From assembly GCF_963576615.1 (NCBI RefSeq), contig NC_088715.1, positions 3,364,001-3,428,000 of the forward strand: a stretch of DNA of 64,000 nucleotides, written 5' to 3'. The notes beneath the pieces were generated by a model. The model was not told the DNA's origin. It worked only from the letters and a program-made list of their open reading frames with translations, and did not search any database. Below, piece by piece: positions 3,340 to 58,830 of this stretch (positions are counted from its first letter, which is position 1; the number at the start of each line of letters is the position of its first letter). This DNA comes from Watersipora subatra. Taxonomy: Eukaryota; Bryozoa; Gymnolaemata; Cheilostomatida; Watersiporidae. A program made the translations under genes and the position numbers.

Positions 3340-6287
3340 GCTTGATATGGGCAGTGCTGTTTCAGGTATGGCACCGAAGAGATCTGGAGCAGTTGTAGTG
3401 ACAGACAATGTATTGGAACTCGTTGTTCTGCCAAATAATCCTGTATTTAGTTTGGATGTTGCTGCTCCGAATAATGATGTAGTTTTGGTATCAGAAGAAG
3501 CTGTTGCAGCTGTGGTGGGGGATAAAAAATTAACACCTGTTGTGCTACCAAAGCGTCCTGTATTTGGTTTGGATATTGCTGCTCCAATTAACGATGTAGT
3601 TGTGGTACCAGAGGAAGCTGTTGCAGCTGAAGTGGGGAATAAAAGACCAGTGGTTGTTGTACTACTAAATAGTCCTGTGTGTGGTTTGGATGTTGCTGCT
3701 CCGAATAACGATGTAGTTTTGGTACGAGAGGAAGCTGTTGCAGCTGTAGTAGGGGATGAAAGATCAATACCTGTTGCACTGCCAAATAGTCCTGTGTTTG
3801 GTTTGGATGTAGCTGCTCCGAATAACGATGTAGTTTTGGTACCAGAGGGAACTGTTGCAGCTATAGTGGTTGATGAAAGATTAACAACTGTTGCACTGCC
3901 AAATAGTCCTGTGCTTGGCTTAGATGCAGCTGCTCCGAATAACGATGTAGTTTTGGTATCGCAGGGAACTGTTGCAGCTGTAGTGGTTGATGAAAGATTA
4001 ACACCTGTTGTACTGCCAAATAGTCCTGTGTTTGGTTTGGATGTTGCTGCTCCGAATAACGATGTAGTTGTGGTACCAGAGGAAGCTGTTGCAGCTGTAG
4101 TAGGGGATGAAAGATCAATGCCTGTTGCACTGCCAATTAGTCCTGTGTTTGGTTTGGATGTTGCTGCTCCGAATAACGATGTAGTTTTGGGACCAGAGGA
4201 AGCTGTTGCAGCTGTAGTGGTGGATGAAAGATTAACATCTGTTGTAGTACCAAATAGTCCTGTGCTTGGTTTGAATGTTGCTGCTCCAAATAACGATGTA
4301 GTTTTGGTACCAGAGGAAGCTGTTGCAGCTGTAGTGGGAGATGAAAGATCACTGCCTGTTGTACTGCCAAATAGTCCTGTGTTTGGTTTGGATGTAGCTG
4401 CTCCGAATAATGATGTAGTTTTGGGACCAGAGGACGCTGCTGCAGCTGTAGTGGGGAATGAAAAATTATCATCCATTGTAGTACCAAATAGTCCTGTGTT
4501 TGGTTTGGATGTAGCTGCTCCAAATAACGATGTAGTTTTGGTACCAGAGGAAGCTGTTGCAGCTGTAGAGGGGGATGAAAGATTAACATCTGTTGCACTG
4601 CCAAATAGTCCTGTGTTTGGTTTGGATGTAGCTGCTCCGAATAATGATGTAGTTTTGGGACCAGAAGAAGCAATTGCAGCTGTAGTGGTTGATGAAAGAT
4701 TAACATCTGTTGTAGTACCAAATAGTCCTGTGTTTGGTTTGGATGTAGCTGCTCCGAATAACGATGTAGTTTTGGTACCAGAGGGAACTGTTGCAGCTAT
4801 AGTGGTTGATGAAAGATTAACAACTGTTGCACTGCCAAATAGTCCTGTGCTTGGCTTAGATGCAGCTGCTCCGAATAACGATGTAGTTTTGGTATCGCAG
4901 GGAACTGTTGCAGCTGTAGTGGTTGATGAAAGATTAACACCTGTTGTACTGCCAAATAGTCCTGTGTTTGGTTTGGATGTTGCTGCTCCGAATAACGATG
5001 TAGTTGTGGTACCAGAGGAAGCTGTTGCAGCTGTAGTAGGGGATGAAAGATCAATGCCTGTTGCACTGCCAAATAGTCCTGTGTTTGGTTTGGATGTAGC
5101 TGCTCCGAATAATGATGTAGTTTTTGAACCAGAGGACGCTGTTGCAGCTGTAGTGGGGAATGAAAAGTTATCATCTGTTTTAGTACCAAATAGTTCTGTG
5201 TTTGGTTTGGATGTTGCTGCTCCGAATAACGATGTAGTTTTGGGACCAGAGGAAGCTGTTGCAGCTGTAGTGGTGGATGAAAGATTAACATCTGTTGTAG
5301 TACCAAATAGTCCTGTGTTTGGTTTGGATGTAGCTGCTCCAAATAACGATGTAGTTTTGGTACCAGAGGAAGCTGTTGCAGCTGTAGAGGGGGATGAAAG
5401 ATTAACATCTGCTGCACTGCCAAATAGTCCTGTGCTTGGTTTGGATGTAGCTGCTCCGAATAATGATGTAGTTTTGGGACCAGAAGAAGCAATTGCAGCT
5501 GTAGTGGGGGATGAAAGATCAATGCTTGTTGTACTACTAAATAGTCCTGTGTTTGGTTTGGATATTGCTGCTCCGAATAACGATGTAGTTTTAGGACCAG
5601 AGGAAGCAATTGCAGCTTTAGTAGGGGATAAAAAATTAACACCTGTTGTACTGCCAAAGCGTCCTGTGTTTGGTTTGGATGTAGCTGCTCTGAATAACGA
5701 TGTAGTTTTAGGACCAGAGGAAGCTGTTGCAGCTATAGTAGGGGATGAAAGATTAACACCTGTTGTAGTACCAAATAGTCCTGTGTTTGGTTTGGGTGTT
5801 GCTGCTCCGAATAGCGATGTAGTTTTGGGACCAGAGGAAGCTGTTGCAGCTGTAGTAGGGGATGAAAGATCAATGCTTGTTATACTACTAAATAGTCCTG
5901 TGTTTGGTTTGGATGTTGCTGCTCCAAATAACGATGTAGTTTTGGTATCACAGGAAACTGTTGCAGCTGTAGGGATTGATGAAAGATTAACACCTGTTGT
6001 GCTGCCAAGTAGTCCTGTGTTTGGTTTGGATGTTGCTGCTCCGGATAACGATGTAGTTTTGGTACCAGAGGAAGCTGTTGCAGCTGTAGTGGTAGATGAA
6101 AGATTAACATCCGTTGTAGTACCAAATAGTCCTGTGTTTGGTTTAAATGGTTGAGATGCATTTACTGAGGCAGGCTTGAACCCAGCGAAAAGTGACTTTG
6201 ATCCAGCATTAGTGTTGGGTGATATGTTAAAATCTTTCAGAATACCAATAGATTGTGTGGTTGACTTGGATATTGCAGTTTCAAATC
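3340..6287 (-). CDS. FG-repeat exon of TRIM copy A (proposed alternative exon)
   Basis: This 2948-nt minus-strand exon is open throughout. No ATG occurs in the frame until 4476, so translation must enter by splicing. The acceptor is CTTCTGTTTTAG just above 6287 and the donor is GTAAGT at 3334-3339. Start phase is 1 and end phase 0. It encodes about 982 residues: an N-terminal unique part of about 50, roughly 24 tandem 39-residue repeats with two FG motifs each (GLFG and SLFG) in a Ser/Thr-rich spacer, and a short unique tail. FG repeats are known from nucleoporins, where they bind transport receptors and cohere. Here the upstream exons encode RING and B-boxes. Copy B conserves the reading frame and both splice sites. 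The alternative is a nested independent gene or an untranslated repeat. Confidence 0.6.
3430..6150. repeat. 117-bp coding tandem repeat in FG exon A
   Basis: About 23-24 copies of a 117-bp unit (39 codons) occur here. The units are very similar at nucleotide level, and groups of neighbouring units recur as blocks (for example the set at 3820-4130 recurs at 4770-5080), which indicates recent unequal exchange. Because 117 is a multiple of three, open frames also persist on the opposite strand. Confidence 0.93.
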
Positions 6288-6883
6288 CTAAAACAGAAGT
6301 AAAGATACAAAATGAATTTGGTTCAGTTGTGATTCTACAAGACTGTTATACACCAGCAAGTCTATTTGATTATTGTGGATTCATAATGCAAAAATAAACT
6401 CACTTGAATATTGGTTGGTCTACCTAGCTTTTCTAAAAAGAAATACTGTAATGTTCTACAAGAAAAATTGCAGTGAGTATTTTTAGGCTTTCGTTTTCCT
6501 AGAAGCATGTAGAAGTTGCATTAGAATTATACATAGATTAACTGAATTCTCAGCAGGTAATAAAAAGTCTTTAGACAGAAAATTTATTTTTCTTTATTAT
6601 ATACAACTTTACCATTCTAGTTTTTAAACTTCATATTATGAGAAAAGATTTTTGTTGAGCTCAATTGAATTAAGAGAAAAAATAAAACAAATGTGAGGAT
6701 TGTCAACCTTTTCCAAACAACTCTAATTTTTATATCTATATGTTTAAATCTGAAAGTCTTCGTCGACGCCGTCATTTGTTCAGATGTCTGCCTTTCTATA
6801 TATAGCTATTAAAATCTTGGAACAAAAAGCTCTCCGCTCTGAGTTTGATTTTTCAGAGATTGCAACTGCAAGTTTTTGCCATT
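6288..6883. other. Intron of copy A upstream of the FG exon
   Basis: The part at 6420-6545 aligns with 53450-53570 of copy B, confirming paralogous introns. The rest holds AT-rich sequence and a repeat-family fragment (cttcatattatgagaaaag at 6629-6647) that recurs near 19110, 55650, 60410 and 60515. No coding exon is seen. Confidence 0.5.
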
Positions 6884-7290
6884 GCTAGCTGTGCTATCCA
6901 GCTTTGCCTTGGTATTAAAAATCAGCTTATAAACAATGAGAGGTAATGAGAGTTGCCTGCCACTTGCTATTAGCCTGACACGTTGCCAATGGGTATTTTG
7001 AGTGTCTTACTAATAAAACTTACTGCTTCTCATGACACTGTGTTGTGATGGAAACGGTAGCGTATTTGTTCCCATATAGTGACATATATTGCCTAGTGAT
7101 TCTATCAAGATCGTGTAGTTTAATTAGTCAGTTGTCGGACTGGCATGGCGAATGGGAGGCTTCGAGATCAAATCTTCTGCGATACGGATTCTATACTCCA
7201 AGATTTTAATAGCTATAGCCGGACAATCGCAATGGTGAAGAATACCCGAATACACACACGACCAACTTTGAGAAATATATATACATGTAA
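6884..7290 (+). mobile_element. tRNA-derived SINE
   Basis: The element starts with gctgtgctatccagctttgc and contains a tRNA-like stretch. Its A-box-like part is near 7115-7130 and its B-box-like part (ggcttcgagatcaaatc) is near 7160. It then continues gatacggattct and attttaatagctatagccgg. The same order is seen at 31480-31890 (plus), and in reverse at 18545-19005 and 53725-54073. It is non-coding; mobilisation would depend on a partner LINE not seen here. Confidence 0.6.
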
Positions 7291-7309: not shown

Positions 7310-7957
7310 AAGTTTATTAAAAACTACAGGTTAAAATCATTACTACTAATAGTTTCATGCAATCGCGTTGCAATCTTCAGGTAGAATGACTAAAATGTAT
7401 AATGTACAAGCTATAAAATTACTTTATAAAGCTGAGGGCTCAATACTGTTGTCTGATATATATAGTATACAGCAAAGATGTAGTCAAATTATGCTATCGA
7501 GCTAATTAAGTGTTTTCTAGCGTGCCGGCATGTGGATATCAGCTCACTTTTAGTGTTAAGGCTGACTAACTTTGGTTCGAATATGATGAAGTACTTTTCC
7601 CGTAGACATAACTGGCAAGATTTTGTTGATGTGTTGTATGACAGCGCTCTTTTGATGATCTTCCAGGTTATATTATAGTGAATGTTCTTGTCTTTTAAGT
7701 CCCATATGTATTTATTCAATCCTGTTTGTAGCCTTTTGGTAGGATATTTAAAAGATGTTTTGTGGTTGGCTAATCTTGTTTTAAAAGTTGTTTCAGTGAG
7801 GCCGACATACGTTTGTGTCTCTTGCGCATCGTGTTCTCCAGACTCTACGGTCGCCTGATATACTATGCAGTTTGAAAGGCATTCTCCATTTAGAGGGCAA
7901 TTTTCCCGATTTTTGCAGTTGCATTTTCTGTCGATGTTGGGTGGTTGCAATAGTGCT
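7310..7957 (-). mobile_element. Penelope-like element fragment: GIY-YIG domain and 3' end
   Basis: The minus-strand frame 7489-7950 encodes a cysteine-rich start (CKNRENCPLNGECL) followed by a GIY-YIG-type nuclease core (TYVGLTETTFKTRLANHKTSF, KYIWDLKDKN) and a conserved tail (SCQLCLREKYFII, ELISTCRHARKHL). This order is typical of the C-terminus of GIY-YIG-bearing Penelope-like retroelements. The 3' non-coding part (7310-7488) matches 17757-17935 in opposite orientation. The frame is intact, but the reverse transcriptase upstream is missing; the adjoining RT piece faces the other way. Confidence 0.75.
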
Positions 7958-7989
7958 TGTTTATTGTGCCAGCTAATTATGTGGTTGAT

Positions 7990-8650
7990 GTCTGAAGTAC
8001 AGCTATAACTTAGTTTAAAATGAAAATGATCTAAGCAAAAAACTTGAAGATAAAACCAAAGTTATTGTGGCTGCAGACAAAACAAACAATTACTATCGCA
8101 TGAATACTCAGACTTACCAGAGCCTCTTAACCAACAACACCACGAAGGACTACAAAAAGATAATTACAGCTACAGTAGATTCCATCAATTTAGAAACAAA
8201 GGCTATAGCAAACAAACTTAATATCACAGACCGAATATATAAAACTAGTGAGCAAGAAGCATTTATCACTATTAAAGATCACAAGGCAAACTTCCCGAGA
8301 AACCAACTTGTCGGCTCATTAATCCTAGCAAATCGGAGATAGGCATCATCAGTAAACAAATCACAGATCGCATCAACCAGGAAATACTCAACCAACTGAA
8401 CTTAAATAATTGGACAAACACAACATCGGTGCTAACATGGTTTAAAAACATCACTAACAAATCCCAGCACTCTTTCATTGTATTTGATATCATTGAATTT
8501 TATCCCTCAATAACGGAAGATCTACTTAAAGAATAGAAAAAGCATAATATTATTATGCTTTATTAGTTGACTTATGTTCTAAAAATAGAATCAAGGAGAT
8601 TGACCCACTAGAAGCTGAGATATAGCCAGCCAAACACAGGTCTAACTAAT
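7990..8650 (+). mobile_element. Penelope-like element fragment: N-terminal reverse transcriptase
   Basis: Plus-strand translation gives RT segments of the same element: VAADKTNNYYRMNT, EQEAFITIKDHKANF (8067-8342), then after a frame shift near 8335 IGIISKQITDRINQEI, and FDIIEFYPSITEDLL, the first catalytic-Asp motif of the palm. The coding sequence breaks near 8335 and again at a TAG after LLKE. The end (8500-8650) is homologous in reverse orientation to 16420-16560. It is a non-functional fragment. Confidence 0.75.
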
Positions 8651-9212: not shown

Positions 9213-9737
9213 TGTGGCAGATTTGTTACTACCCATATTATACAGTTCGGTTACAGTGCATGCTTACTCATATTCTTAGTCAACCCACGCGTCATTAATC
9301 CTTATATGGTCATTATTACCGTATATAGTCATTATGCCCTTACATGGGCGAGCTCCACGCTTGACATCACAACCTATATAAAGGAATGCACAGCTTGCAG
9401 TGGAGGCAGTTGTTTGTAAGATAGCCAATACAATTATACGCATATACACGCTCTCTCTTCATTTCATGCTTGAGCAATCAGTAAAAGAATTAATGCCTGA
9501 TAGACGACTAGTATAGGCATCATCGGTCATCTAGTTGACTACGGGGTCAGCAGCTGGTGTGCTCTGACGGGGACGACCTAATCATAAAAGAGAGGGCGGC
9601 CCAAGCTAATCAGACAGTGGACCTTAGGGTCGACGTAGTCTTCCATTATCACAGATAATTATAGTGCACGGCAAGGTTAATGTAAGCCGACCCGAGGGGT
9701 CGCCATTAGGTACGCTGGTAGACCAAAAACCAGTACA
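9213..9737 (+). repeat. 5' LTR of gypsy A
   Basis: It begins tgtggcagatttgttac and ends accagtaca, and is nearly identical to 15486-16010. It contains a TATA-like stretch (cctatataaagg near 9372), the likely promoter, with start sites expected just downstream. Confidence 0.93.
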
Positions 9738-9738
9738 C

Positions 9739-9758
9739 TGGTGGCAGCGGTGGGATCG
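9739..9758 (+). other. Primer-binding site of gypsy A (tRNA-Leu)
   Basis: The sequence tggtggcagcggtgggat begins one base after the LTR. It is complementary to the 3' end of a tRNA-Leu (…ATCCCACCGCTGCCA plus CCA), from my knowledge of animal tRNA-Leu sequences. Confidence 0.75.
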
Positions 9759-9765
9759 TCTGACC

Positions 9766-10620
9766 ATGCCTGGAAGACGGTCAACTAGGAGAGAGGCAGC
9801 TGAGGCTGATCTCCATCAAGCTGATCAGTATGGGCGGATGACTGACGCCATAACTGAGGCTTTACGGCAATCTCGACCAGAGAGGGACTTCAAGCCCCCT
9901 AAGTTTGATGGCAGTGATGATGTTGAACTGTTCATCAGTCAGTTTCAGGAAGTAGCTGAAGTTAATCAATGGTATACAGGGTCAGCACGTCTACACCTCA
10001 GAAAGGTACTGAAGGACAGTGCTAAAAGCTGTGGTAGGGGAGAAACTACAGATGCCATCTTTGCAGCCTTGAAAACTAAATTTGGTCTGACAGTTAGAGA
10101 GGCCAGGAGTCAATTAAAACTCAAGAAGGAAGTCAAGGTTAGCTTGCAAGATCATGCTGCGGAAATAGAAAGACTAGCCAATATAGCTTATGCTGATCTG
10201 CCTGAGCACCATTGTGCAAATATGGCATTAAATGCTTTCTCCTTGACATTGGGCAACACCTATCTACAGAGGCATCTGTTAGCGGTGGGAGCACAGACTT
10301 TGGGAGAGGCAGTGCAGGCTGGAAATGAGTTTCTGCAAATTCAGCCATTTAATCCTCGGTTGACCCAAAGGTCAACCATCATGGCTATAGAAGGGGAGGA
10401 AGAGGATGACCCCAAGGCAGCCCAGGTCGACCTCCCACAAGCTACAAAATCGGCTACGTTGGAAGATGTCCTTGTAGCCCTAAAGGAGCTGACCACCCTG
10501 ACGACAGGACTGGCGGTCAATGGTAGCCGACCCAGAAGCCAAGGTCGGACTACTCCAGAGCCGCAGCAGATCAGAAGGGCGACCAGCTGTCGGGAATGTA
10601 GAATAGTCAGACATGTCAGA
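9766..10620 (+). CDS. Gag of gypsy A (interrupted)
   Basis: The start chosen is the ATG just after the primer-binding site (MPGRRSTRREAAEAD). The open frame upstream of it is LTR sequence. The central part is a retrotransposon Gag capsid-like region (PPKFDGSDDVELFISQFQEV; HLRKVLKDSAKSC). The C-terminus enters a CCHC knuckle (CREC), but the Gly before the His is replaced and a TGA at 10621-10623 cuts it just before the last Cys. Gag packages element RNA. The frame upstream is otherwise intact, about 285 residues. Confidence 0.8.
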
Positions 10621-10864
10621 TGACAGTGTCCTCGGATGGCAGCTACCCAGCCAGCAAGAAACCAGCAGCAGGGAAACAGACATCGTCCACAGCAGTAGGG
10701 GGACATACTGACTGTGGACCCTCAAACCAGAGAAAGCCACCCTAACAGACTCCACGTCGGACAGGTCGACCTCAGACCCCCATAGGTCAACTTCAGTCCT
10801 ACTACAAAACTCTTTTGACTCACTAACTGAGCAGCAAACAGAGGAAATCCAAATCCCAAACCCA

Positions 10865-11710
10865 GTGGTTACAGAAAAGCCCCAGACAAGGAGACGGCGT
10901 AAGAGGTGGCAGCACACCGGTCGAACAACTCAGCAGGTCGGTCCTGAGAGAGTGGCTGCGGACACCCTTTGGAAACCGTACAGTAGTAGCTATTTCTTAC
11001 CTGGGAAGATTATGGGCCGATCTGTTCATTTCCTGATAGACAGTGGATGCACTTCCAGCCTACTCAGCCGTCATGTCTTTGACCGGCTTCCCGCGGGGTT
11101 GAAAGCTCAGTTGGTAGAGAGAACAGACTATGGTTTGATGGCTGACGGGTCTCGCCTAAACTTTCATAGCATGTTGACCGTACCCATCCGAGTCAGAAGT
11201 GTACAAGTGACTGTATCACTTCTTGTATGCCCCCTAAAAGAAGATGCCATCATCGGGATGCCATTCTTGACAGACCAATGCTGTGAGATGAATTTCCAAG
11301 AGTCCACATTGGTAGTGAATGGTCAGAAGCTGATCTGCACAGATCGGGACGGACGACCCTTGGTGAGCAAGGTGCAGGTTGTCCGTACCATGACACTTCA
11401 ACCTCGGTTGGAGATGGTGGTTACATGCCGCATCACGACCCACACATACCAACCCTTAGAAATGGTAGAGGGATCAGGAGATCGGTACATGGTGGCTGCC
11501 AGCCTCCACCTACCTGACGAGAAGGGAAAAGTAGCCCTGCGTTGTTTGAACCCGACAGATTCCTCTGTACAGGTAGCGTCAGGAACTGTGATTGGCAGCT
11601 ACACAGGAGTTGATGAAACTGAAATCGGCCAGCCCTGGACAGAGGGGGGCCAAAGGGAGCAAGACCAAGCCAGGATACCCGGCCTGACCCAAAGGTGGCT
11701 CCTCACGTGA
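10865..11710 (+). CDS. Protease region of gypsy A
   Basis: This frame differs from Gag. It contains the retropepsin active-site motif as LIDSGCTSSLL (DSG) and the flap-distal motif AIIGMPFL. A linker to RT follows and is cut by a frame change at about 11695-11710. The first codon given is the start of the open segment, not a proven initiation site; in Ty3 elements PR is made as part of Gag-Pol. Function: cleavage of Gag and Gag-Pol in particles. Confidence 0.75.
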   Translation: MVTEKPQTRRRRKRWQHTGRTTQQVGPERVAADTLWKPYSSSYFLPGKIMGRSVHFLIDSGCTSSLLSRHVFDRLPAGLKAQLVERTDYGLMADGSRLNFHSMLTVPIRVRSVQVTVSLLVCPLKEDAIIGMPFLTDQCCEMNFQESTLVVNGQKLICTDRDGRPLVSKVQVVRTMTLQPRLEMVVTCRITTHTYQPLEMVEGSGDRYMVAASLHLPDEKGKVALRCLNPTDSSVQVASGTVIGSYTGVDETEIGQPWTEGGQREQDQARIPGLTQRWLLT

Positions 11711-13035
11711 AAGAGCTGTATAGCCAAGCTATAGTGCACTGTAGGGGTGACTACGACAGACAACAAGTAGTTAGGCTCCTTGATCAGTATGCCGATGTCT
11801 TCAGTAAAGGGGATGGAGATGTGGGTCGGACTACATTGGTCCAACATGAGATACCCCCGATAACGAATGCTCAACCCATTCGGCAGACCCCATACAGGGT
11901 TGGCCCTGAGAAGGAAGCGGAAATAGATCGGCAGGTCTCTGAGCTGGCCAAACAAGGAATGATAGAGCAGGCATATGGAGCTTGGAGCTCTCCTGTGGTC
12001 CTGGTCAGGAAAAAGGATGGAACTTGGAGACTGTGCATTGATTATCGGAGGTTGAATGCGGTCACTAAACAGGACGCGTATCCACTTCCTCGGATCGATG
12101 ACAGTCTGGATGCTCTGTCAGGCAGCAAGTTGTTCAGCACTCTCGATTTGATGAGCGGCTATTGGCAGGTACCCCTGTCGCCGGGAGCGCAGGAGAAATC
12201 AGCTTTCATCATGAGAAGTGGGCTTTGGAGATGGAAAGTGCTGCCTTTCGGGCTGACGTCGGCCCCTGCCACGTTTCAGAGGCTTATGGAGCGAGTGCTG
12301 CAAGGGCTCCACTGGAAGACGCTCTAGCTGTATCTGGACGACATCATAGTCATGTCAGCCGACCTCCAGAGTCACCTGTTTAGGCTGTCAGAAGTACTAG
12401 ACAGGCTTCGACAAGCCGGCTTGAAACTAAAACCATCTAAATGTACCCTCATGCAGACAAAAGTGAAGTACCTTGGACATGTGGTGAGTTCAACTGGTGT
12501 AGCCACAGATCCGGAAAAAGTGGAAGCGATCCACAGGTGGTCAGAGCCAACTGATGTAACTCAGCTGAAGGCTTTTTTCGGCACTACCGGTTACTACCAT
12601 CGATACATGCCCGACTACGCTTCAGTTGCCAAGCTCTTGACACTACTCACGGCAGAAGGGTCTACCTGGAAGTGGGGTCAACCTGAACAAGAAGCTTTCA
12701 GTCATCTCAAGTGGCTCTTGACGCATGCCCCTGTACTAGGCTACCCAGATCCGACCTTAGAGTACATACTTGACACAGATGCCAGCAACGTCGGAACTGG
12801 GGCCGTATTGTCTCAGGTCCAGCAAGGACAGGAGCGAGTTATTGCCTATCACAGCAAGACACTCTCCCCTGCGGAGAGGAACTACTGTGTCACAAGGTGA
12901 GAACTCCTGGCTGTGGTATTAGCCATGAAACATTTCCGGCCCTATTTGTACGGTCGGGAGTTTGTCATCAGGACCGACCATGCTTCCCTAGTCTGGCTGC
13001 ACCGGAGGAAGGAACCCTCCAGTCAGATAGCCCGG
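11695..13035 (+). pseudogene. Reverse transcriptase and RNase H of gypsy A (with in-frame stops)
   Basis: One frame carries RT motifs in order: SSPVVLVRKKDGTWRLCIDYR, FSTLDLMSGYWQVPL (first catalytic Asp), LPFGLTSAPATFQ, and YLDDIIV (catalytic Asp pair), followed by the thumb and an RNase H domain (DTDASNVGTGAVLSQ; TDHASLVWLH). It is interrupted by TAG at 12325-12327 directly before YLDD, TGA at 12898-12900 and TAG at 13036-13038. Confidence 0.9.
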
Positions 13036-13038
13036 TAG

Positions 13039-15354
13039 TTGGAAAGCTTGTCGGAACACAGATACAAGATTGTGCACCAAAAGGGAAAGAAGCATGAAAA
13101 TGCTGATGGCTTGAGTAGGCAACAGTGTGAAGACTGCAAGCGATGTGCCTCAATAGATAGACGAGATGGTGGGCCTCCCAGCTCGGAGATCTGTAAAGAA
13201 TTACAGAAGGGGACGATTCCACCAAGTCAAGTACCCACGAGAAATCTGGATGAGATTGAGTGGCCACTTCTGCCCCGACAACCCCAGAGATGGAGGAACC
13301 AAGCAGTGGGCGTCCCGGCAGATGTAGAAATTGACCAGGTCGGACCCAACAGCAGGCCTTGGAAAGACAAGGAGGCCGGCCCCAGGCCAATCCAGGAGGG
13401 TAACCCTAGTGTAAACAAGAAGGTCGATCAAGGCTTAGGTCAGCATCCCCCTATTATAGAAAAACGGCCCCCCGCACAGAAGAAAGCTGGCGAAATTGTT
13501 GCACTACAAAAGAGAGCAGAGACGGCAATCGGAAAAATTTGCCAGGCAGTGTTGACTGGTAGACCCATAGATGCCCAAGTTTTACAACTTGGCGACCAAG
13601 AGTTGAAGAGGCTAGCCAACAGGTTTTTGCAGCTACGGATCGATCCCGACGGGGTCTTGACAGCGACAATCCCAGGAAATGGTAGAAGCAAAGCAGTCAC
13701 CGTCTGCCCTTTACCTGTGCGGCAAGACCTAATCTGGGAGACACATAGACAGGCCCACAGTGGCGTAGATCGGACACTAAAAAGGGTCCAGTTGGACTGG
13801 TATTGGCCAGGAATAACCAGTGACGTACGTCAGACGGTAATGTCCTGTGAAGTGTGCCAACAGGCCAAACATGGCACTGGTGCAACAACCTCCAATAGAC
13901 AGAGGCTCTACGCTGGTCGACCGTGGCAGAGATTGGCTGTAGACCTGGTCGGACCCCTACCCTTAACCACCCAAGGAAACATCTGGGCTCTTGTGATGAC
14001 CGACCCCTTCACTAGGTGGTCGGACGCTATCGCAATCCCAGATGCCACCGCGCCTACCGTGACCAGTACGCTGGAGGAAAGGGTTTTCAGTTATTTCGGA
14101 TTGCCAGAAATAATCCATACTGATTCGGGGACTCAATTCGAATCCGACCTATTCCAGGAGCTGTGTCGACTTTGGGGAGTCGAGAAGTCAAGGGCGACCC
14201 CATACAGGCCTGAAGGTAACGGTATAGTTGAACGGAATAACAGAATACTCGGAGACTCTCTGCGAGCCCTCCTTACTGGAAGAGGACAGGAGGAATGGGA
14301 TCTCGTGTTACCACATTTAATGAGAACAATGAGGGAGATTCCCCATTCAGCCACCAAAGAAACTCCAAACTACATGATGCTCGGTCGGGAGTTGTGCCTC
14401 CCTGACCAACTCCAACATGGGAGTTCAGTGGAATCTTTTCAGAGTACGAATGAGTACGCTATTGCAATCCAAGATCGGCTCTTACAAGCCCATGAGATTC
14501 TCAGGCACAGGCAGTTAGAAATCGTGGCTGAAGACACAACTGAACCACCACTGTTCAAGGCTGGCGACCTGGTCTGGATGACCCGCAGACGTCGACGGAA
14601 GGGGGAGAACTCCAAGTTGTCGGCCAAAAGAGTTGGGCCTTACCGGGTAATCCAAAGCTTTCCAAATCATACGTACACAATCGAACGCCGGGAACAGCGT
14701 TCTGTGCAGTCTGAACACCGGTTGAAAGCTTACAAACCCTGCAGTAATTATCATGGAAAAGCCCCAGTCTTGCTTGAGCCTAGTAGAAGGCCTAACATGC
14801 GTGGAGTAAGGAAAAACCACAGAAAAACTCAGGCAGAGCCCGTCTTAGAAGCTGAAAATGCAGAAAAGGCAAGTAGGAAAGACCACTCCGAAGGTGACGA
14901 TGGGACAACTCCTAAGGAAGCTTTTGACAATCCAGAGGGCCAGCCTTCCAGTGAACAAAGCCGAGATACAGAAAACTGCACTCCAGCAAGTGCAGAGGCA
15001 GGAGAGTCAACTGTCCACCGACAGCCAGACGATGTTAGCAGGCCTCAGAGGAGTAGAAATCTGCCTCCGCACCTACGCGAGTATGAATTGAACAGTATCC
15101 AATTAAAAAATTCGGGAGCGATTACGTCATTGGCAGCGGCTAGTTTAAAATGTGCTGCCATGCCCCAGTCATTCAGTCAACACCAGCCTCAGATTTCCGT
15201 TCGGACTGTGAGTGTACGTCCAGAGAGGTTGGAAATCTCGATGTCAAGGAAGTCAATGTCAGCCGCTGACCGATTGAGGTTAGAGGCTCAGCAATTGCGT
15301 AGGACGGCCGCATACTTAGAAAAGCTGGCCGACCAGCAAGAGGCCAGCCCGTAA
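13039..15354 (+). CDS. Integrase and C-terminal tail of gypsy A
   Basis: This 771-codon frame continues the RT frame after a stop. It starts in the end of RNase H (HENADGLSRQQC), then gives an HHCC zinc region (THRQAHSGVDRT; CEVCQQAK), the integrase core with the D,D,E pattern (AVDLVGPLPL; IIHTDSGTQFES; PYRPEGNGIVERNN) and a GDLVWM / VGPYRV C-terminal module. About 200 residues of charged, low-complexity tail ending in a Leu/Arg-rich helix follow, longer than in many Ty3 integrases. It is intact across its length. Confidence 0.88.
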   Translation: MESLSEHRYKIVHQKGKKHENADGLSRQQCEDCKRCASIDRRDGGPPSSEICKELQKGTIPPSQVPTRNLDEIEWPLLPRQPQRWRNQAVGVPADVEIDQVGPNSRPWKDKEAGPRPIQEGNPSVNKKVDQGLGQHPPIIEKRPPAQKKAGEIVALQKRAETAIGKICQAVLTGRPIDAQVLQLGDQELKRLANRFLQLRIDPDGVLTATIPGNGRSKAVTVCPLPVRQDLIWETHRQAHSGVDRTLKRVQLDWYWPGITSDVRQTVMSCEVCQQAKHGTGATTSNRQRLYAGRPWQRLAVDLVGPLPLTTQGNIWALVMTDPFTRWSDAIAIPDATAPTVTSTLEERVFSYFGLPEIIHTDSGTQFESDLFQELCRLWGVEKSRATPYRPEGNGIVERNNRILGDSLRALLTGRGQEEWDLVLPHLMRTMREIPHSATKETPNYMMLGRELCLPDQLQHGSSVESFQSTNEYAIAIQDRLLQAHEILRHRQLEIVAEDTTEPPLFKAGDLVWMTRRRRRKGENSKLSAKRVGPYRVIQSFPNHTYTIERREQRSVQSEHRLKAYKPCSNYHGKAPVLLEPSRRPNMRGVRKNHRKTQAEPVLEAENAEKASRKDHSEGDDGTTPKEAFDNPEGQPSSEQSRDTENCTPASAEAGESTVHRQPDDVSRPQRSRNLPPHLREYELNSIQLKNSGAITSLAAASLKCAAMPQSFSQHQPQISVRTVSVRPERLEISMSRKSMSAADRLRLEAQQLRRTAAYLEKLADQQEASP

Positions 15355-15485
15355 CTGTGACAGTAACAAGCGGTTTAGACTCATTTCCTTCTCTATTTTA
15401 TCACCTCATTACTATTCTTTTTTATTTTTAGTATTATTTTTATATATGTCTATATAGACGGATAGCCGTCTATAGGGGCGGCATA

Positions 15486-16010
15486 TGTGGCAGATTTGTT
15501 ACTACCCATATTATACAGTTCGGTTACAGTGCATGCTTACTCATATTCTTAGTCAACCCACGCGTCATTAATCCTTATATGGTCATTATTACCGTATATA
15601 GTCATTATGCCCTTACATGGGCGAGCTGCACGCTTGACATCACAACCTATATAAAGGAATGCACAGCCTGCAGTGGAGGCAGTTGTTTGTAAGATAGCCA
15701 ATACAATTATACGCATATACACGCTCTCTCTTCATTTCATGCTTGAGCAGTCAGTAAAAGAATTAATGCCTGATAGACGGCTAGTATAGGCATCATCGGT
15801 CATCTAGTTGACTACGGGGTCAGCAGCTGGTGTGCTCTGACGGGGACGACCCAATCATAGAAGAGAGGGCGGCCCAAGCTAATCAGATGGTGGACCTTAG
15901 GGTCGACGTAGTCTTCCATTATCACAGATAATTATAGTGCACGGCAAGATTAATGTAAGCCGACCCGAGGGGTCGCCATTAGGTACGCTGGTAGACCAAA
16001 AACCAGTACA
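15486..16010 (+). repeat. 3' LTR of gypsy A
   Basis: It is 525 bp, the same length as the 5' LTR, with about ten substitutions. It is preceded by a purine-rich stretch (agacggatagccgtctataggggcggcatatg), which includes a small palindrome, and is followed by the AACT target duplication. Confidence 0.93.
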
Positions 16011-16610: not shown

Positions 16611-17757
16611 TGTATAATACACCACGCAAAAAAATCTATACTCTACAGCGCTAATGAACCGTGAGGTAAGAGATCAACTGCAAACTTGTATGACATAACA
16701 ATGGGCTCTTAGGACAGAGCAAAAAGCTGCCAATTTGTCGGAATCTTCATGCTACACCTTATCACTGAGAAGCTTGGCAAAAACTTTGGCTTGTATTGGG
16801 ACGATGGTCTAGGACTACTGAAAGATACTGGGCGAAACATTGAGTGCACTAAGAAAGAACTAGGTGAAATGTTCTGTAAACACAGCTTACGTATCACCAT
16901 CGAAGCAATTAAGAAAGTAGTAAACTTCTTAGACGTAACTTTGGACCTTAACAACAACAGCTTCAAACCGTATAGTAAACCTAACAACGCAACCACATAT
17001 GTACACAAAGACTCAAATCATCCACCATCAATCATAAGAAACATACATGAATCCATCAACAAAAGACTCACCAACATTTCGTCAAACAAGCAACTCTTCG
17101 AGGAAACAAAAGCCCCATTTCAAAATGCACTTTCTAACAGTAAATGCAACTTCTCTTTAAAATACCAGAGCAACAACCCCAACAAAGAAACCAATCAACA
17201 CAGAAACAGGAAACGCCAAACAATATGGTACAAACCCCCATACAACAAACAAAGCTATTACCACCTAGATCGGTAAACAATTTTTCAAGATCCTGGAGAG
17301 TGAATTTTCACCAGAACACAAATTCCACAAAATCTTCAACAAAAACTCCATAAAACTAAGTTGTAGCTGTACTTCAAACATCAACCACATAATTAGCGGG
17401 TGCAATAAACAAGCACTATTGCAACCAACCAACATCAACAGAAAATGCATCTGCAAAAATTGCCCTCTAAATGGAGAATGCCTTTCAAATTGCATAGTAT
17501 ATCAGGCATTGAGTAAATACATATAGGACTTAAAAAACAAGAACATTCACTATAATAGAACCTGGATGATCATCAAAAGAGCGCGGTCATACAACACATC
17601 AACAAAATCTTGCCAGTTATGTCTATGGGAAAAGTACTTCATCCTATTCGAACCGAAGTTAGCCAGCCTTAACACTAGAAGTGAGCTGATATCCACATGC
17701 CGGCACGCTAGAAAACACCCAATTAGCTCAATAACATAATTTGACTACATATTTGCT
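16611..17757 (+). mobile_element. Penelope-like element fragment: C-terminal RT and GIY-YIG
   Basis: The open frame 16749-17276 shows the RT C-terminal part with a YWDDGLGLLKDTGR motif (the catalytic YxDD), VVNFLDVTLDLNNNSFKPY and SNHPPSIIRNIHESINKR. After a frame change near 17270 the element continues with FSPEHKFHKIFN, the cysteine-rich linker (ICKNCPLNGECL), part of the GIY-YIG region (a segment around YVGLTE is missing) and TKSCQLCLWEKYFILFEPK, ending near 17740. It contains a deletion and a TAG near 17525. It is an inactive copy of the element also present at 7310-8650. Confidence 0.8.
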
Positions 17758-17892
17758 GTATACTATATACATGTATATCACACAATAGTACTGAGTCCTC
17801 AGCTTTATAAAGTAATTTTATCGCTTGTGCATTATACATTTTAGTCATTCTACCTCAAGATTGCAACGCGATTGCATGAAACTAGTAGTAGT

Positions 17893-17984
17893 AATGATTT
17901 TAACCTCTAGTTTTTAATAAACTTCATACACAGCTCTAATTGACTCGATTATTGAGCACTTTATTTTAGAGTGTAAACCACATA

Positions 17985-19274: not shown

Positions 19275-19467
19275 CTTCTTCCTCTCCTTGGCATAGGGAG
19301 TCCATGTCACAGTTCGCACAGAACATCTGATAGCACAGGCCACAGGCTATAGTAATAACTTGGTTAGGGTGCTCCTTGCATAAAAGTCTCTGGTAACTCA
19401 CCCGAGAAGATGCATATGTTGATATACTCACTTTGTCATGCTCAAGGTCAAATAGCTCGTCATGATC
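19275..19467 (-). CDS. TRIM copy A, B-box 2 exon
   Basis: The 193-nt exon has acceptor TTTTTGATAG and donor GTGAGG, starting in phase 0 and ending in phase 1. After an acidic linker (DHDELFDLEHDK) it encodes the first zinc-binding residues of a B-box 2: CKEH, then CGLC and CANC. The last ligand region is not in this exon and is supplied by the coil-1 exon (HHKF). The copy B exon at 56903-57095 has the same length and phases. Translation past the donor reaches a stop 10 codons later. Confidence 0.85.
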
Positions 19468-19544: not shown

Positions 19545-19713
19545 CTGCTCATGCACTTCACAAAATGTCTTTGCACAGTTGACACAATATACACTGGCTG
19601 GACTTTCACTTGATTTGCAGGGGTCACAAATGATAGCATCTTCCTCCTGGCAGTTCGTTTCAGCTGCCAAGGAATATGATTGGAGAGAATCGGCCTCTCC
19701 TGTCCACTGCTGA
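19545..19713 (-). CDS. TRIM copy A, B-box 1 exon
   Basis: The 169-nt exon has acceptor TTATTATTACAG and donor GTGAGT, from phase 2 to phase 0. It encodes a linker (QQWTGEADSLQSY) and a B-box type 1 zinc pattern: CDPC, then YCVNC, then FCEVHEQ. It joins the RING exon in frame (CPIC followed by NQQW across the junction) and the B-box 2 exon in frame. The paralogue is at 57173-57341. Confidence 0.88.
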
Positions 19714-20013
19714 CTGTAATAATAAAATAAACTAACCATAGACAATGAAACCGGTGCACAGGTACTTTACACCAGGCGCTGTGTATGTACAAAATGTGTA
19801 ACCGGTGATTCCCAACCAAAGTTAGTTCAACTAAACAGGAAACAGAAAGGTTTTACCATGTGGCTTCAACCACTGAGTTAGTGATCAAGCACAATGCCAA
19901 AAAGACACATTTGAACTGCAGCATTTTATCACAAACATAAAATAATTTTCTGTTAGGCTCAGAGGAGTATTCTGAACTTGGTAGAAAAGATAAATACTTG
20001 GAGTTGTACTCAC

Positions 20014-20038
20014 TTGCATGTTGGACAAGTCTTTCTAT
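20014..20038 (-). pseudogene. Orphan duplicate of the RING exon 3' end
   Basis: About 25 bp matching the end of the RING exon, plus its GTGAGT donor, recurs inside intron 1 of copy A (KTCPTC instead of KTCPIC). It is part of a roughly 270-bp local tandem duplication covering about 19760-20030 and 20030-20300. There is no acceptor, so it cannot be a normal exon. Copy B lacks the duplication. Confidence 0.75.
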
Positions 20039-20283: not shown

Positions 20284-20448
20284 TTGCATATTGGACACGT
20301 CTTTTTATAATCAGCTGTAAGGCAAGACAAGCAGTAGACATGAGAACATGGTAGCTTTTTAGGGTCTGTACTAGTTATCAGTTTTTCCATACAGAATCCA
20401 CAGCGGGTATCCTCATGTTCTCCCATTCTAGTGTGCCTATGCTCAAAC
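20284..20448 (-). CDS. TRIM copy A, RING exon with start codon
   Basis: The exon begins after acceptor CCATTGCTTAG and ends at donor GTGAGT. The start codon is at 20426-20424 in a good context (A at -3, G at +4). Forty-seven codons plus two bases encode a C3HC4 RING: CGFC, then a 12-residue loop, CSHVYCLSC, and CPIC. RING domains recruit E2 enzymes for ubiquitin transfer. The exon ends in phase 2, matching the B-box 1 exon. Copy B at 57642-57806 is nearly identical, with one visible Lys to Glu change in the loop. Confidence 0.9.
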
Positions 20449-36839: not shown

Positions 36840-37110
36840 TTTTTAGCTGTAAAGTTTCCTTCTCAATACTAAAATTCTTCAAGGGCTGGAGGCTGGTGTT
36901 GTACAAGTTTGATTTGTTTTCATGCATAAAGTCCAGAAGGCTGGCTCTATCACCATCTATGATTGAGGCAATCTCTTTTTCTAATGCCTGCAGATGTTCA
37001 CTTTCTGATTTCAGTTCATCCGTACGTAGAGCAGCTCTTGCAACTGCACTTTTGAACTTCCTCTCGAGCTCTCCCACTATCTTTTTGCCATTCTCATACA
37101 AGACCTTGCA
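36840..37110 (-). CDS. TRIM copy B, second coiled-coil exon (coil 2)
   Basis: The 271-nt exon follows acceptor ATAAATTTCAG and ends at donor GTTAGT, phase 0 in and phase 1 out. It encodes 90 residues of predicted helix (CKVLYENGKKIVGELERKF, ALRTDELKSESEHLQALEKE) with heptad-like Leu/Ile/Val spacing, then a loop (NKSNLYNTSLQPL). It joins coil 1 (phase 0) or exon X/FG exon (phase 0) upstream and the propeller exon downstream, all in frame. No counterpart of copy A falls within the window. Confidence 0.8.
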
Positions 37111-41118: not shown

Positions 41119-41142
41119 GCAGCCTGACCAAACTGTGAGTAT

Positions 41143-45828: not shown

Positions 45829-46028
45829 CCTTTCACGGATGATTCTGTGTACTTGTGTCTTCATTCTTTTGTTATAGATATCAGCCTCATCAACAGCTTG
45901 CCAAAGCTGTTTCTCTGCTCTGCAGATATTTGTAGACTGCTCAGACAGGCTTTGGAGTCGTCTCCTTAGCAACTCATCTGCTTTGCTCAGCACATCAGCG
46001 ACAGGCATGAATTTATGGAGGCGCGTGT
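45829..46028 (-). CDS. TRIM copy B, exon completing B-box 2 and starting the coiled coil (coil 1)
   Basis: 200 nt, acceptor TTTATTTGTTAG, donor GTAACT, phase 1 to 0, exactly as in copy A (306-505). It encodes DTRLHKFMPVADVL (one His of the pair in copy A is Leu here) and the helix SKADELLRRRLQSLSEQS and CRAEKQLWQAVDEADIYNKR. In frame with the B-box 2 exon and coil 2. It is needed to complete the B-box 2 zinc site, so the isoform using it is the standard TRIM form. Confidence 0.82.
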
Positions 46029-47329: not shown

Positions 47330-49640
47330 ATAGACACAGTGAGTAACATCATATAAGAACTCATATAATAACGTAGACACAGTAAGTAACATCGGATAAG
47401 AACTCATATAGTAATATAGACACAGTGAGTAACATCAGATAAGAACTCATATAGTAATATAGACATAGTGAGTAACATCTGTTGAGAACTCATATAATAA
47501 CATAGACACAGTAAGTAACATCGGATAAGAACTCATATAGTAATATAGACACAGTGAGTAACATCAGATAAGAACTCATATAGTAGTATAGACATTGTGA
47601 GTAACATCACATAAGAACTCATATAGTAGTATAGACACAGTGAGTAACATCAGATAAGAACTCATATAGTAATATAGACGTAGTGAGTAACATCAGATAA
47701 GAACTCATATAGTAATATAGACATTGTGAGTAACATCAGATAAGAACTCATATAGTAATATAGACATAGTGAGTAACATCTGATGAGAACTCATATAGTA
47801 ATATAGACACAGTGAGTAACATTAGATAAGAACTCACATAGTAATATAGACACAGTGAGTAACATCAGATAAGAACTCATATAGTAATATAGACACTGTG
47901 ATTAACATCAAATAAGAACTCATGTAGAAATATAAACACAGTGAGTAACATCAGATAAGAACTCATATAGTAATATAGACATAGTGAGTAACATCAGATA
48001 AGAACTCATATAGTAATATAGACATAGTGAGTAACATCACATAAGAACTCATATAGTAGTATAGACACAGTGAATAACATCAGATAAGAACTCATATAGT
48101 AATATAGACATAGTGAGTAACATCAGATAAGAACTCATATAGTAGTATAGACATTGTGAGTAACATCACATAAGAACTCATATAGTAGTATAGACACAGT
48201 GAGTAACATCAGATAAGAACTCATATAGTAATATAGACGTAGTGAGTAACATCAGATAAGAACTCATATAGTAATATAGACATTGTGAGTAACATCAGAT
48301 AAGAACTCATATAGTAATATAGACATAGTGAGTAACATCTGATGAGAACTCATATAGTAATATAGACACAGTGAGTAACATTAGATAAGAACTCACATAG
48401 TAATATAGACACAGTGAGTAACATCAGATAAGAACTCATATAGTAATATAGACACTGTGATTAACATCAAATAAGAACTCATGTAGAAATATAAACACAG
48501 TGAGTAACATCAGATAAGAACTCATATAGTAATATAGACATAGTGAGTAACATCAGATAAGAACTCATATAGTAATATAGACATAGTGAGTAACATCACA
48601 TAAGAACTCATATAGTAGTATAGACACAGTGAATAACATCAGATAAGAACTCATATAGTAATATTATATTACTATTTACTACATATATTACTATATTATA
48701 TTTACTACATATATTACTATATTATGTCTATAATAGACATAGTGAGTAACATCACATAAGAGCTCCTATAGTAGTATAGACACAGTGAGTAACATCAGAT
48801 AAGAACTCATATAGTAATATAGACATAGTGAGTAACATCAGATAAGAACTCATATAGTAATATAGACATAGTGAGTAACATCACATAAGAGCTCCTATAG
48901 TAGTATAGACACAGTGAGTAACATCAGATAAGAACTCATATAGTATTATAGACATAGTGAGTAACATCAGATAAGAACTCATATAGTAATATAGACATAG
49001 TGAGTAACATTAGATAAGAACTCACATAGTAATATAGACACAGTGAGTAGCATCAGATAAGAACTCATATGGTAATACAGCCACAGTGAGTAACATCACA
49101 TAAGAACTCATTTAGTAATATAAACTCAGTGAATAACATCAGATAAGAATTCATATAGTAATATAGACATAGTGAGTAACATCAGATAAGAACTCATATA
49201 GTAATATAGACATAGTGAGTAACATTAGATAAGAACTCACATAGTAATATAGACACAGTGAGTAGCATCAGATAAGAACTCATATGGTAATACAGCCACA
49301 GTGAGTAACATCACATAAGAACTCATTTAGTAATATAAACTCAATGAATAACATCAGATAAGAACTCATATAGTAATATAGACATAGTGAGTAACATCAG
49401 ATAAGAACTCATATAGTAATATAGACACAATGAGTAACATCAGATAAGAACTCATATAGTAATATAGACATAGTGAGTAACATCAGATAAGAACTCATAT
49501 AGTAATATAGACACAGTGAAAAACATCAGATAAGAACTCATATGGTAATATAGACACAGTGAGTAACATCAGATAAAAACTCATATAGTAATATAAACCC
49601 AGTGAGTAATATCGGATGACAACTCATATAGATTAAATAT
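47330..49640. repeat. 43-bp minisatellite in intron of copy B
   Basis: About 53 copies of the same 43-bp unit as 1785-2950. A block of 13 units is duplicated: 47591 onward and 48150 onward are the same variant series, 559 bp apart (13 x 43). A small ATATTACTA-rich disruption lies at 48662-48735. Confidence 0.95.
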
Positions 49641-49895: not shown

Positions 49896-51889
49896 ATTTA
49901 ATACCGGCATTACAGCTCTAGATTTGTCACCAAAGGGAGCTCGCGCAGTTGTAGTGGCAGATAATGTATTGGAATCTGTCATACTACCAAATAGTCCTGT
50001 GTTTAATTTGGTTGATGCAATGGCCAGTCTTGAGAAAGGCTTCAAATCCAAGTGAAGTGGTGCAGTTGTATTGTCAGATAATGTATTGGAATCTGTCGTA
50101 CTATCAAGCAGTTTTGTGTTTGATTTAGATGCTGAAAATTTGATTCTTGACAAAGGTTTTAAAATCAAGCGAGTTGGCGCACTTGTAGTGCCAGATGATA
50201 TATCGGAGTCTGATGTACTACCAAACAGTCCTGTGTTTGAGTTTGATGCTACAAATCCGAATTCTGAATAAGGCTTTGAAACCAAAGGAGCTGGTGTCGT
50301 TGTAGTGACAGACGATATGTTGGAGTCTGTTGTTCTATAAAATAGTCCTGTGTTCGATTTTGATTGTGGAACTCCGAATCCTGACATTGGCTTTGAACCA
50401 AAAGGCGCTGGTGCAACCGTAGTGACAGACACAGTATTTGAATCTGCCGTACTACCAAATAACACTGTGCTTAATTGAGACGTTGCAAGTCCAAATTGTG
50501 ACAAAGGCTTTGAAACCAGTGCATTCGGTGCAGTTGAAGTAACTGACGAAATACTGGAATCTGTCATACCACCTAATAGTCTGGTGCTTGATTTTTCTTG
50601 TGGCATTCCAAATCTTGACATCGGCTTTGCACCAAAGGGAGCTGGTGCAGTTGTAGTGACAGACAATGTATTGGAATCTGTCGTACTATCAAATAGTCCT
50701 GTGTTTGATTTGGATGTTGCAAATTTGAATTCTAACATCGGCTTTGAAACCAAGGGAGCTGGTGTCGATATAGTGACAGACGATATGCTGGAATCTGTTG
50801 TGCTATGAAATAGTCTTGAGTTTGAATTCGATTGTGGAACTTCAAGTCCCGACATCGGCTTTGTACCAAAGGGAGCTGGTGCAGTCGTAGTGGCAGACAC
50901 TGTAATGGAATCTGTGTTTGATTTGGATGTTGCAAATTTGAATTCTGACGTCAGCTTTGAAGCAAAGGGGGTTGAAGCAGTTGTAGTGATGAATGATATA
51001 TTAGAGAAATCTGTTGTAATATCAAATAACTCTGTGTTTGATTGAGACATTGCAAGTCCAAATTGTGACAAAAGCTTTGAACTCAAGGGAGCTGGTGTCA
51101 TTGTGGTGACAGACGATATGTTAGAGTTTGTTGTTCTATAAAATAGTCCTGTGTTGGATTTTGATTGTGGAACTCCGAATCCTAACATCGGCTTTGAACC
51201 AAACGAAACCAGTGCAGTTGTAGTGACAGACCCTGTATTGGAATCTGTCGTACTACTAAATGGTCCTGTGTTTGATTTGGATGGTGCAAATCCGGATCCT
51301 GACATCGGCTTTGAAGCAAAGGGAGTTGCAGCAGTTGTAATGATGGATGATATATTGGAATCTGTTGTACTGCCAAATAACTCTGCGTTTGACTGTGACG
51401 TTGCAAGTCCAAATTGTGACGATGGCTTTACAACCAATGCATTCGGTGTAGTTGAACTGACAGATGAAATATTGCTATATGTCGCACCACCAAACACTCC
51501 GGTGCTTGATTTAAATTGTGACACTACGGATCTTGACATGTCCTTTGCAAAAAAGAGTGATGGTGCAGTTGTAGTGACAGACAATGTGTTGGAATCTGTT
51601 GTACTACTAAATGGTCCTGTGTTTGACTTTGATTGTAGAACTCCGAATCCTGACATCGGCTTTGAACCAAACAGAACCGGTGCAGCTGTAGTGACAGACA
51701 CAGTATTGGAATCTGCTGTATTACCAAATAGTTCTGTGTTTGATTTGGATGTTGCAAAGTTGAATTTTGACATCGGCTTTGAAGCAAAGATAGATGAGTT
51801 TGATGCAGTGATGGCGTTGGGAGGTATATTGGAAACTTTCAGAACATCAAAGACTTTTGTGGTTGGCTTGGATGTTGCAGTTTCAAATC
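49896..51889 (-). CDS. FG-repeat exon of TRIM copy B (proposed alternative exon)
   Basis: The 1994-nt exon has an excellent acceptor (a run of T then CCTTCACCTCTGATTTAG) and donor GTAAGT, phase 1 to 0, as in copy A. It encodes 664 residues: an N-terminal part of about 40, some 16 tandem 39-residue repeats (SNTGLFGSTTDSN, then APAPFGSKPMSGFG) carrying GLFG, PFG and GFG motifs, and a short tail. The repeats are much more diverged from each other than in copy A, yet the frame has no stops over 2 kb while the other frames are broken. That is the best evidence that this frame is the selected one. Role unknown; FG repeats in nucleoporins bind karyopherins and form cohesive phases. Confidence 0.65.
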
Positions 51890-56902: not shown

Positions 56903-57095
56903 CTTTTTTCTCTCCTTGGCATAGGGAGCCCATGTCACAGTTCGCACAGAACATCTGATAGCATAAACCACAGGCTATAGTAATAACTTGATTAGGGTGC
57001 TCCTTGCATAAAAGTTTTTGGTAACTCGCCCGAGAAGATGCGTATGTTGATATACTCACTTTGTCGTGCTCAAGGTCAAATAGCTCGTCATGACC
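56903..57095 (-). CDS. TRIM copy B, B-box 2 exon
   Basis: 193 nt, acceptor TTTTTGATAG, donor GTGAGA, phase 0 to 1. Same zinc residues as copy A (CKEH, CGLC, CANC). Differences include a Gly for Asp at the first codon and a more basic end (GEKKG). It feeds either the coil-1 exon or the FG exon in frame. Confidence 0.85.
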
Positions 57096-57172: not shown

Positions 57173-57341
57173 CTGTTCATGCGCTTCACAAAATTTCTTC
57201 TCACAGTTGATACAGTAGACACTGGCTGAACTTTCACTTGATTTGCAGGGGTCACAAATGATAGTATCTTCGTCCTGGCAGTTCGTATCAGCTGCCAAGG
57301 AATATGATTGGAGGGAACCGGCCTCCCCTGTCCACTGCTGA
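57173..57341 (-). CDS. TRIM copy B, B-box 1 exon
   Basis: 169 nt with the same splice sites and phases as copy A. Zinc pattern CDPC, YCINC, FCEAHEQ. A few substitutions from copy A, all outside the zinc ligands. Confidence 0.88.
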
Positions 57342-57641: not shown

Positions 57642-57806
57642 TTGCATATTGGACATGTCTTTTTATAATCAGCTGTAAGGCAAGACAAGCAGTAGACATG
57701 AGAACATGGTAATTCTTTAGGGTCTGTACTAGTTATCAGTTTTTCCATACAGAATCCACAGCGGGTATCCTCATGTTCTCCCATTCTGGAGTGCCTATGC
57801 CCAAAC
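57642..57806 (-). CDS. TRIM copy B, RING exon with start codon
   Basis: The start codon is at 57784-57782. C3HC4 RING: CGFC, CSHVYCLSC, CPIC, all ligands present. Ends in phase 2 at GTGAGT. It differs from copy A by one loop residue that I can see. Such closeness at the RING, compared with the strong divergence of the FG exons, points to selection or gene conversion at the 5' end. Confidence 0.9.
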
Positions 57807-58740
57807 CTAAGCAATGGAGCACAGGCTATAATACATACTGAAATGAATACTGTAACTATTATCCACTACAAGTGAATCTCAGAGGTTTGAAGCCAGCTTG
57901 AAGCCAGCTATTTATCCGTAAAAGCATATCGGCAAATGGTTATACGGATATCCGGAGAGATTTTTAAAACGCTTCGTGACGAACATGCTAATCTCAGCAC
58001 GCATTGGCGAACAAATTCAACGAAAATTTCCACGCTTACTCTATCTACTATTATATTACGTTACATTGATAATGCCACCGGCCTTGAAGGTTTGGGAGTT
58101 CTCCACAGATGGGAAGATGTATAAAAACTCTAACGGGACTGGACTCTAATTGGATTGCGTATAATTATGTAATTACATTAGCTGATTACAATATGTGATA
58201 GTAAGATTTCTGTAAACTGTTTCAGTATATTTAACAAAGAGAGCCTCTTGCCATTATCTATCTGTTCTCTATTATACATAACGTTTGTATCAATAACTAT
58301 ATTTTTAATAGAATAAACAATAAAAATATCTATCATGAAAATTATATTTCCATCTTTCTTTTCTTTTTTGGCTTTCTAAAACAAGTCTCTTTGCCGTAAC
58401 AATATACTGCTGACTAAAGAATGTTTTTTGCACAGGCTACTGTTGCACAACGATAAAAATTGTTCGAGACAGTTATGATGTAAAGTTTAAACCATTTAAA
58501 GACACTGATAACCACATACCGAACAATAGTACAGACAATACCGAACTTTCTTAGTTGGCAAAGGATACCGAAGATGGTGAATACCGAGGATACCGATACC
58601 GTAAAAACCGATAAAAATGAGCAAGGATATCAGATCCGGCACTAAATTAGATACCGGCCCAACACTAACCTAAACACACATGAGTCATTCACAACTTTCA
58701 TTCACTACTTTAGACTGCCTTATACTAATCTTGCACTAAC
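57807..58740. other. First intron of copy B with an insertion
   Basis: The intron is 934 bp here but 212 bp in copy A. The extra DNA (about 57890-58690) begins within a short duplicated word (gaagccagctt). It includes an unrecognised 62-codon frame (57936-58124) and a run of imperfect ataccga repeats near 58505-58600. Probably a mobile insertion of unknown type. Confidence 0.55.
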
Positions 58741-58830
58741 CTGTGATGCCAGTCAGACAGAAGTCTGCAGTGTGAAACTTAGCTGTGCGCCTTCTGCGCT
58801 GCCAAATTATGTGTTGCTAGCCAGACGGCT
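58741..58830 (-). other. 5' untranslated exon of TRIM copy B (5' end approximate)
   Basis: Same CACAG/GTTAGTGCAAG donor as copy A, embedded in a conserved block. The upper limit is not determined. Confidence 0.55.

Follow-up and report, generated by a model that had tools for sequence, protein, structure and literature searches.

In TRIMCyp, the fusion of TRIM5 with cyclophilin, a new module replaces the C-terminal domain of the TRIM protein and binds capsid, as known from experiment, and some retroviral capsids bind FG peptides. Here we describe genes of the bryozoan Watersipora subatra that resemble known systems in part. They share with TRIM/RBCC E3 ligases (TRIM28-like) a RING followed in order by two B-box-like fingers, but add an exon of FG repeats, and their C-terminal part belongs to no Pfam family. 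With FG nucleoporins (PF13634) they share FG density and S/T-rich, low-charge repeats, although here the FG array sits in a RING/B-box gene. The likeness to TRIMCyp would lie in the entry of a new binding module into a TRIM gene through splicing; in W. subatra, however, the FG module would replace an exon of the coiled-coil region (CC1) and not the C-terminal domain. Protein searches for a combination of RING and FG found none in 8,000 scored candidates (the only match, the annotated protein P0001, is a model starting inside CC1), and a further protein search found none of 67. An alignment of both FG exons as query recovered 0 of 8,000 candidates, with the discounting of low-complexity bias perhaps the cause. 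In a library with few subscription papers, the titles and opening parts of abstracts listed on TRIM proteins with FG repeats and on bryozoan TRIM proteins describe no such protein, and a term search of the main text of a paper on TRIM evolution (PMC3503706) returned neither 'nucleoporin' nor 'FG repeat'.

The window, a stretch of 64,000 nucleotides (positions 3364001–3428000 of chromosome 8, C8), contains two tandem TRIM-like genes, copies A and B, both on the minus strand and both with the exon order RING, B-box 1 (B1), B-box 2 (B2), FG, CC1, CC2, propeller-like and last exon. The names CC1 and CC2 were assigned by position in the gene, as its coiled-coil region. In window positions, the features are:

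57642..57784, minus strand: copy A, RING exon, from the ATG, phase 2 out (Pfam zf-RING_2, 28.2 bits, cut-off 27.3)
57173..57341, minus strand: copy A, B-box 1 exon, phase 0 out
56903..57095, minus strand: copy A, B-box 2 exon, phase 1 out (Pfam zf-B_box, 16.6 bits, below the cut-off of 24.1)
49896..51889, minus strand: copy A, FG-repeat exon, phase 1 in, phase 0 out, 39-residue units
45829..46028, minus strand: copy A, CC1 exon, phase 1 in, phase 0 out, coiled-coil region by position
36840..37110, minus strand: copy A, CC2 exon, phase 0 in, phase 1 out, 79.5% to P0001
31993..32673, minus strand: copy A, propeller-like C-terminal exon, 74.6% to P0001
28418..28545, minus strand: copy A, last coding exon with stop
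20284..20426, minus strand: copy B, RING exon
19545..19713, minus strand: copy B, B-box 1 exon
19275..19467, minus strand: copy B, B-box 2 exon, phase 1 out
3340..6287, minus strand: copy B, FG-repeat exon, phase 1 in, phase 0 out (Pfam Nucleoporin_FG)
306..505, minus strand: copy B, CC1 exon

The CC2, propeller-like and last exons of copy B lie to the left of the window, from C8:3359067 downwards, and P0001, an annotated W. subatra protein that matches this genome at 99%, supports the CC1–CC2 and CC2–propeller joins. An earlier note on this DNA had called the genes TRIM-type and had placed an FG exon inside each of them, on the same strand and with a matching acceptor phase. That placement is correct, and the positions and minus strand that it gave for both arrays are borne out. 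The TRIM name is fair by architecture, given that RING-B1-B2 (residues 8–160) aligned with TRIM28 (6h3a) in phmmer (E 1.2e-7, with a high bias term) and that the RING domain scores above its Pfam cut-off, but the B-boxes stay below theirs. The propeller-like C-terminal part had no Pfam match, and thus none to NHL; a PDB profile search with it returned only designed TIM barrels, over ~40 residues.

The FG exon measures 2–3 kb in both window copies. FG dipeptides number 20 in copy A and 40 in copy B, against 2.9 and 5.8 expected from shuffling. The claim that both copies carry FG repeats is clear for B; A is enriched for FG, but its units are degenerate, with FG at both main sites in 3 of 13 units as against 16 of 23 in B. 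Pfam Nucleoporin_FG (PF13634) matched copy B with 106.3 bits (cut-off 32.2, E 1.5e-30), and the FG exon of copy A had 0 Pfam matches. In composition, copy B (4.1 FG per 100 residues, S/T 0.40) is similar to an FG-nucleoporin-like frame on C7 of the same genome (L035; 37 FG in 701 residues, 5.3 per 100, S/T 0.41), though BLAST gave no match to that frame. A genome search with Nucleoporin_FG had this C7 frame (at 715 residues) and another at C8:54.7 Mb among the matches listed; the latter (L036) was set aside as probably satellite, its longest frame holding a short repeat without FG. The window's own arrays are absent among the matches listed, which counts against reading them as coding exons.

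In a comparison with random change of the repeat unit (13 of the 15 units of A and 23 units of B), copy A has 0 stops in 665 codons where 4.6 are expected (P ~0.009) and copy B has 0 in 983 where 1.4 are expected (P ~0.24). The other frames contain at least 7 stops each in A and at least 1 each in B. An open frame alone is weak proof, however, because that of a third copy, C (the gene of P0001, L037), is open despite the broken state of its gene. Copy C retains RING and B1, an insert splits its B-box 2 exon, and its FG exon is without the acceptor and the first ~48 residues; the remaining frame is open over 455 residues, with 23 FG against 4.8 expected. The 5′ half of this copy is degenerate, which may be why the annotated P0001 starts inside CC1.

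Searches of the genome placed these genes in a family. The search with P0001, in which 58 of 58 candidates were scored, yielded 37 matches, including 12 CC2 exons, all on C8; counted by CC2 there are 12 copies, ten at 2.37–2.76 Mb in addition to A and B. The RING-B1-B2 query detected at least 11 modules in the cluster (150 of 1,339 candidates scored), the CC1 query gave 11 matches (54 of 54) and the FG-A query 28 (67 of 240), 27 of which belong to 11 FG exons within the cluster; the sole match outside it among those scored lies at C8:63.75 Mb (29%, 8 stops). An FG exon occurs upstream of CC2 on the coding strand in 11 of the 12 copies, 10 of them having it after B-box 2. B2 and CC1 are each present in 11 of 12, and 9 copies have B2, FG and CC1 in this order. 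FG is present without a CC1 match at 2.62 Mb and, among the matches listed, without a RING module at 2.64 Mb; the copy at 2.37 Mb has RING, CC1 and CC2 and no match to the FG-A query (67 of 240 candidates scored). No additional copy was found in C8:3124001–3448000, with FG rows of 100 residues or more considered. In line with the expectation that relatives would have the FG exon in the same intron, within this genome 10 of the 11 B2 exons of the cluster are followed by FG on the same strand, ahead of CC1/CC2. Three features of the family count against a coding exon, namely the short FG frames of two copies (150 and 130 residues), 3 TGA codons in one stretch of one FG copy and the one copy in 12 that gave no FG match.

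The splice sites indicate how the FG exon could be used. Its acceptor is in phase 1, the phase in which the B-box 2 exon ends (56903 in A, 19275 in B), and a consensus GTAAGT donor follows it in both copies (AAT/GTAAGT in A, AGC/GTAAGT in B); on both points the earlier note was right. The simple order that it proposed, RING, B-box, FG and coiled coil joined in series, fails at the next junction: the FG donor is in phase 0 and the CC1 acceptor in phase 1, so FG cannot join CC1 in frame, whereas CC2 is entered in phase 0. In copy A, B2-CC1-CC2 and B2-FG-CC2 are open in frame, and FG-CC1 and B2-CC2 are not; in copy B, the frame from FG to CC1 is broken and that from FG to CC2 is kept. FG and CC1, each entered in phase 1 and left in phase 0, therefore look like mutually exclusive exons, a relation missed in the earlier note, which had checked the acceptor. 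From these shared phases we infer that FG would be spliced between B2 and CC2 in place of CC1. The acceptor YAG/GATTT, in phase 1, is found in six of the seven copies read (A, B and those at 2574, 2620, 2729 and 2751 kb), the seventh being copy C, which is without it. A donor GTAAG(T/G), in phase 0, is found in all six copies read, as GTAAGG in the copies at 2621 and 2752 kb and as GTAAGT in the other four (A, B, C and that at 2533 kb), the phase in the 2533, 2621 and 2752 kb copies being derived by hand from the reading frames. Two additional small exons were considered and rejected. One, a micro-exon of 9 nt ahead of FG (A ~53461–53453, B ~6432–6424), falls within a block that A and B both conserve and has lost its AG acceptor in C. 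The other, of 19 nt, would enable an in-frame FG-CC1 join and was the sole conserved candidate across the two aligned stretches compared; its acceptor tract and donor are weak.

The FG exon could instead be an alternative 3′-terminal exon, with read-through past its donor yielding RING-B1-B2-FG without the propeller. Read-through would soon reach a stop (counted by eye, after 3 codons in C and the 2533 kb copy, 6 in A, and 18 in B and the copies at 2621 and 2752 kb), but the GTAAG donor is kept in all six copies read while the length of the read-through tail varies, and we consider this use of the exon unlikely.

Comparison of copies A and B revealed identities of 68–73% at the ends of the FG exon and 58–65% in its flanks, against 77–80% in the CC1 flanks, 91–97% in the other exons and 95–96% in the RING-B2 introns. 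These values point to an FG exon that has diverged about as fast as the flanking introns, with its ORF still open, and to a RING-B2 block that was copied or converted more recently. Within the arrays, the synonymous share of changes (561 of 1,653 in A, 822 of 2,319 in B) is slightly above expectation, the codon positions vary almost equally and changes are near neutral overall. The N/S ratio of the four FG columns, compared with that of the other 35, is ~0.95–0.96 against 0.77 in A, 0.23 against 1.04 in B and 0.0 against 0.57 in C; between B and C it is 0.09 against 1.21. Out of 5,000 random sets of four columns, 3,015 (A), 337 (B) and 653 (C) were as low in N/S, and between copies 1,420 (A–B), 1,018 (A–C) and 365 (B–C), in statistics for which the repeats are not independent. 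The amino acid difference between B and C is 0.129 in the FG columns versus 0.509 in the others (128 of 5,000 random sets as low). Conservation of the FG columns is suggestive for B and B–C, weak elsewhere and absent in A.

Much of this would also be expected if the array were a non-coding or decaying intronic tandem repeat, spread by gene duplication and with the FG pattern as a relic: the intron-like divergence, the unconstrained FG columns of copy A, the near-equal variation across codon positions and the open frame of the broken copy C all fit. Such decay seems improbable to us given that the 665 and 983 codons are free of stops in the coding frame alone and that most copies keep the splice sites and phases. 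It is very improbable that FG forms a gene of its own inside the TRIM intron, on the strand of its host: the first Met of FG-A (residue 40) could start a protein, but the FG-B ORF has a single Met, at residue 604 of 983, and so requires an upstream exon, and FG exons were found only in the TRIM cluster, bar the one weak match with 8 stops (67 of 240 candidates scored). No separate start exon for FG stood out in the alignment.

On balance, we favour a reading in which the array serves these genes, a lineage-specific family of TRIM-like RING/B-box loci on C8, as an alternative coding exon that would replace CC1; judged from sequence, the array is probably coding and probably an exon of these genes. 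One gene would then make two proteins through the choice of CC1 or FG. The first would be a RING–B-box–coiled-coil–propeller ligase, and the second would have the CC1 part of its coiled coil swapped for 130 to ~980 disordered FG residues, a predicted disordered and cohesive arm gained at some cost to coiled-coil dimerisation. Less certainly, the FG segment could make weak, multivalent FG contacts with nuclear transport receptors, pores, FG condensates or FG-peptide-binding particles, with the propeller-like end binding other targets. The rapid divergence and the expansion in copies would suit a defence role, and the FG domain may conceivably act at pores or on capsids. More speculatively, and with considerable doubt on our part, the splice switch may exchange a dimerising part of the coiled coil for a fast-changing FG domain as a lineage-unique, pore-mimic restriction system that, by entering or mimicking FG phases, may trap FG-binding invaders.

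If transcripts confirm the FG exon, these genes would encode a new kind of TRIM protein. If expressed, it would bring the FG chemistry of the nuclear pore inside a ubiquitin ligase and provide a natural test of FG repeats outside the pore. The exclusive exon pair predicts B2-FG-CC2 or B2-CC1-CC2 and never an in-frame FG-CC1, and the family of 12 copies, with FG segments of ~130 to ~980 residues, would offer a built-in series on FG divergence and binding partners.

The long array of 39-residue FG repeats in copy B, the second of the two tandem minus-strand TRIM-like genes, is likewise open on the plus strand, over 946 codons (window 3314–6154), and the best plus-strand frame of the copy A array contains seven stops. 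The open plus-strand frame of the copy B array is a by-product of the repeat. In both copies the FG exon is followed by a 43-bp satellite (window 1789–2872 and 47330–49631), and similar sequence also follows the FG exon in the paralogues at 2621 and 2752 kb on chromosome 8.

Several further insertions, element-like stretches and frames were located in the window and in copy C, the paralogue locus of the annotated protein P0001 (L037, own numbering):

9213–16010, plus strand: Gypsy/Ty3-like element with gag-pol-like frames at 9628–15354
38878–43301, plus strand: second Gypsy-like stretch, broken
7489–8061 and 17353–17932: a frame and its inverted partial copy
L037:3212–6410: insert that interrupts copy C's B-box 2 exon

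The first element, inserted in the intron between the B-box 2 and FG exons of copy B, ends in 525-bp direct repeats (9213–9737 and 15486–16010) that are 98.3% alike. The frame with an inverted partial copy resembles GIY-YIG/Penelope-type elements, and the copy C insert contains a 256-amino-acid frame (L037:4941–5708). Copy B also carries the end of its RING exon and the adjoining intron twice (window 19852–20038 and 20122–20308; 84% alike), the duplication lying inside the RING–B-box 1 intron.

Among the matches listed for the copy A RING–B-box 1–B-box 2 query, another RING/B-box group occupies 8.38–8.60 Mb of chromosome 3, mostly with 31–34% identity to copy A and with several matches in intronless frames of >600 amino acids.
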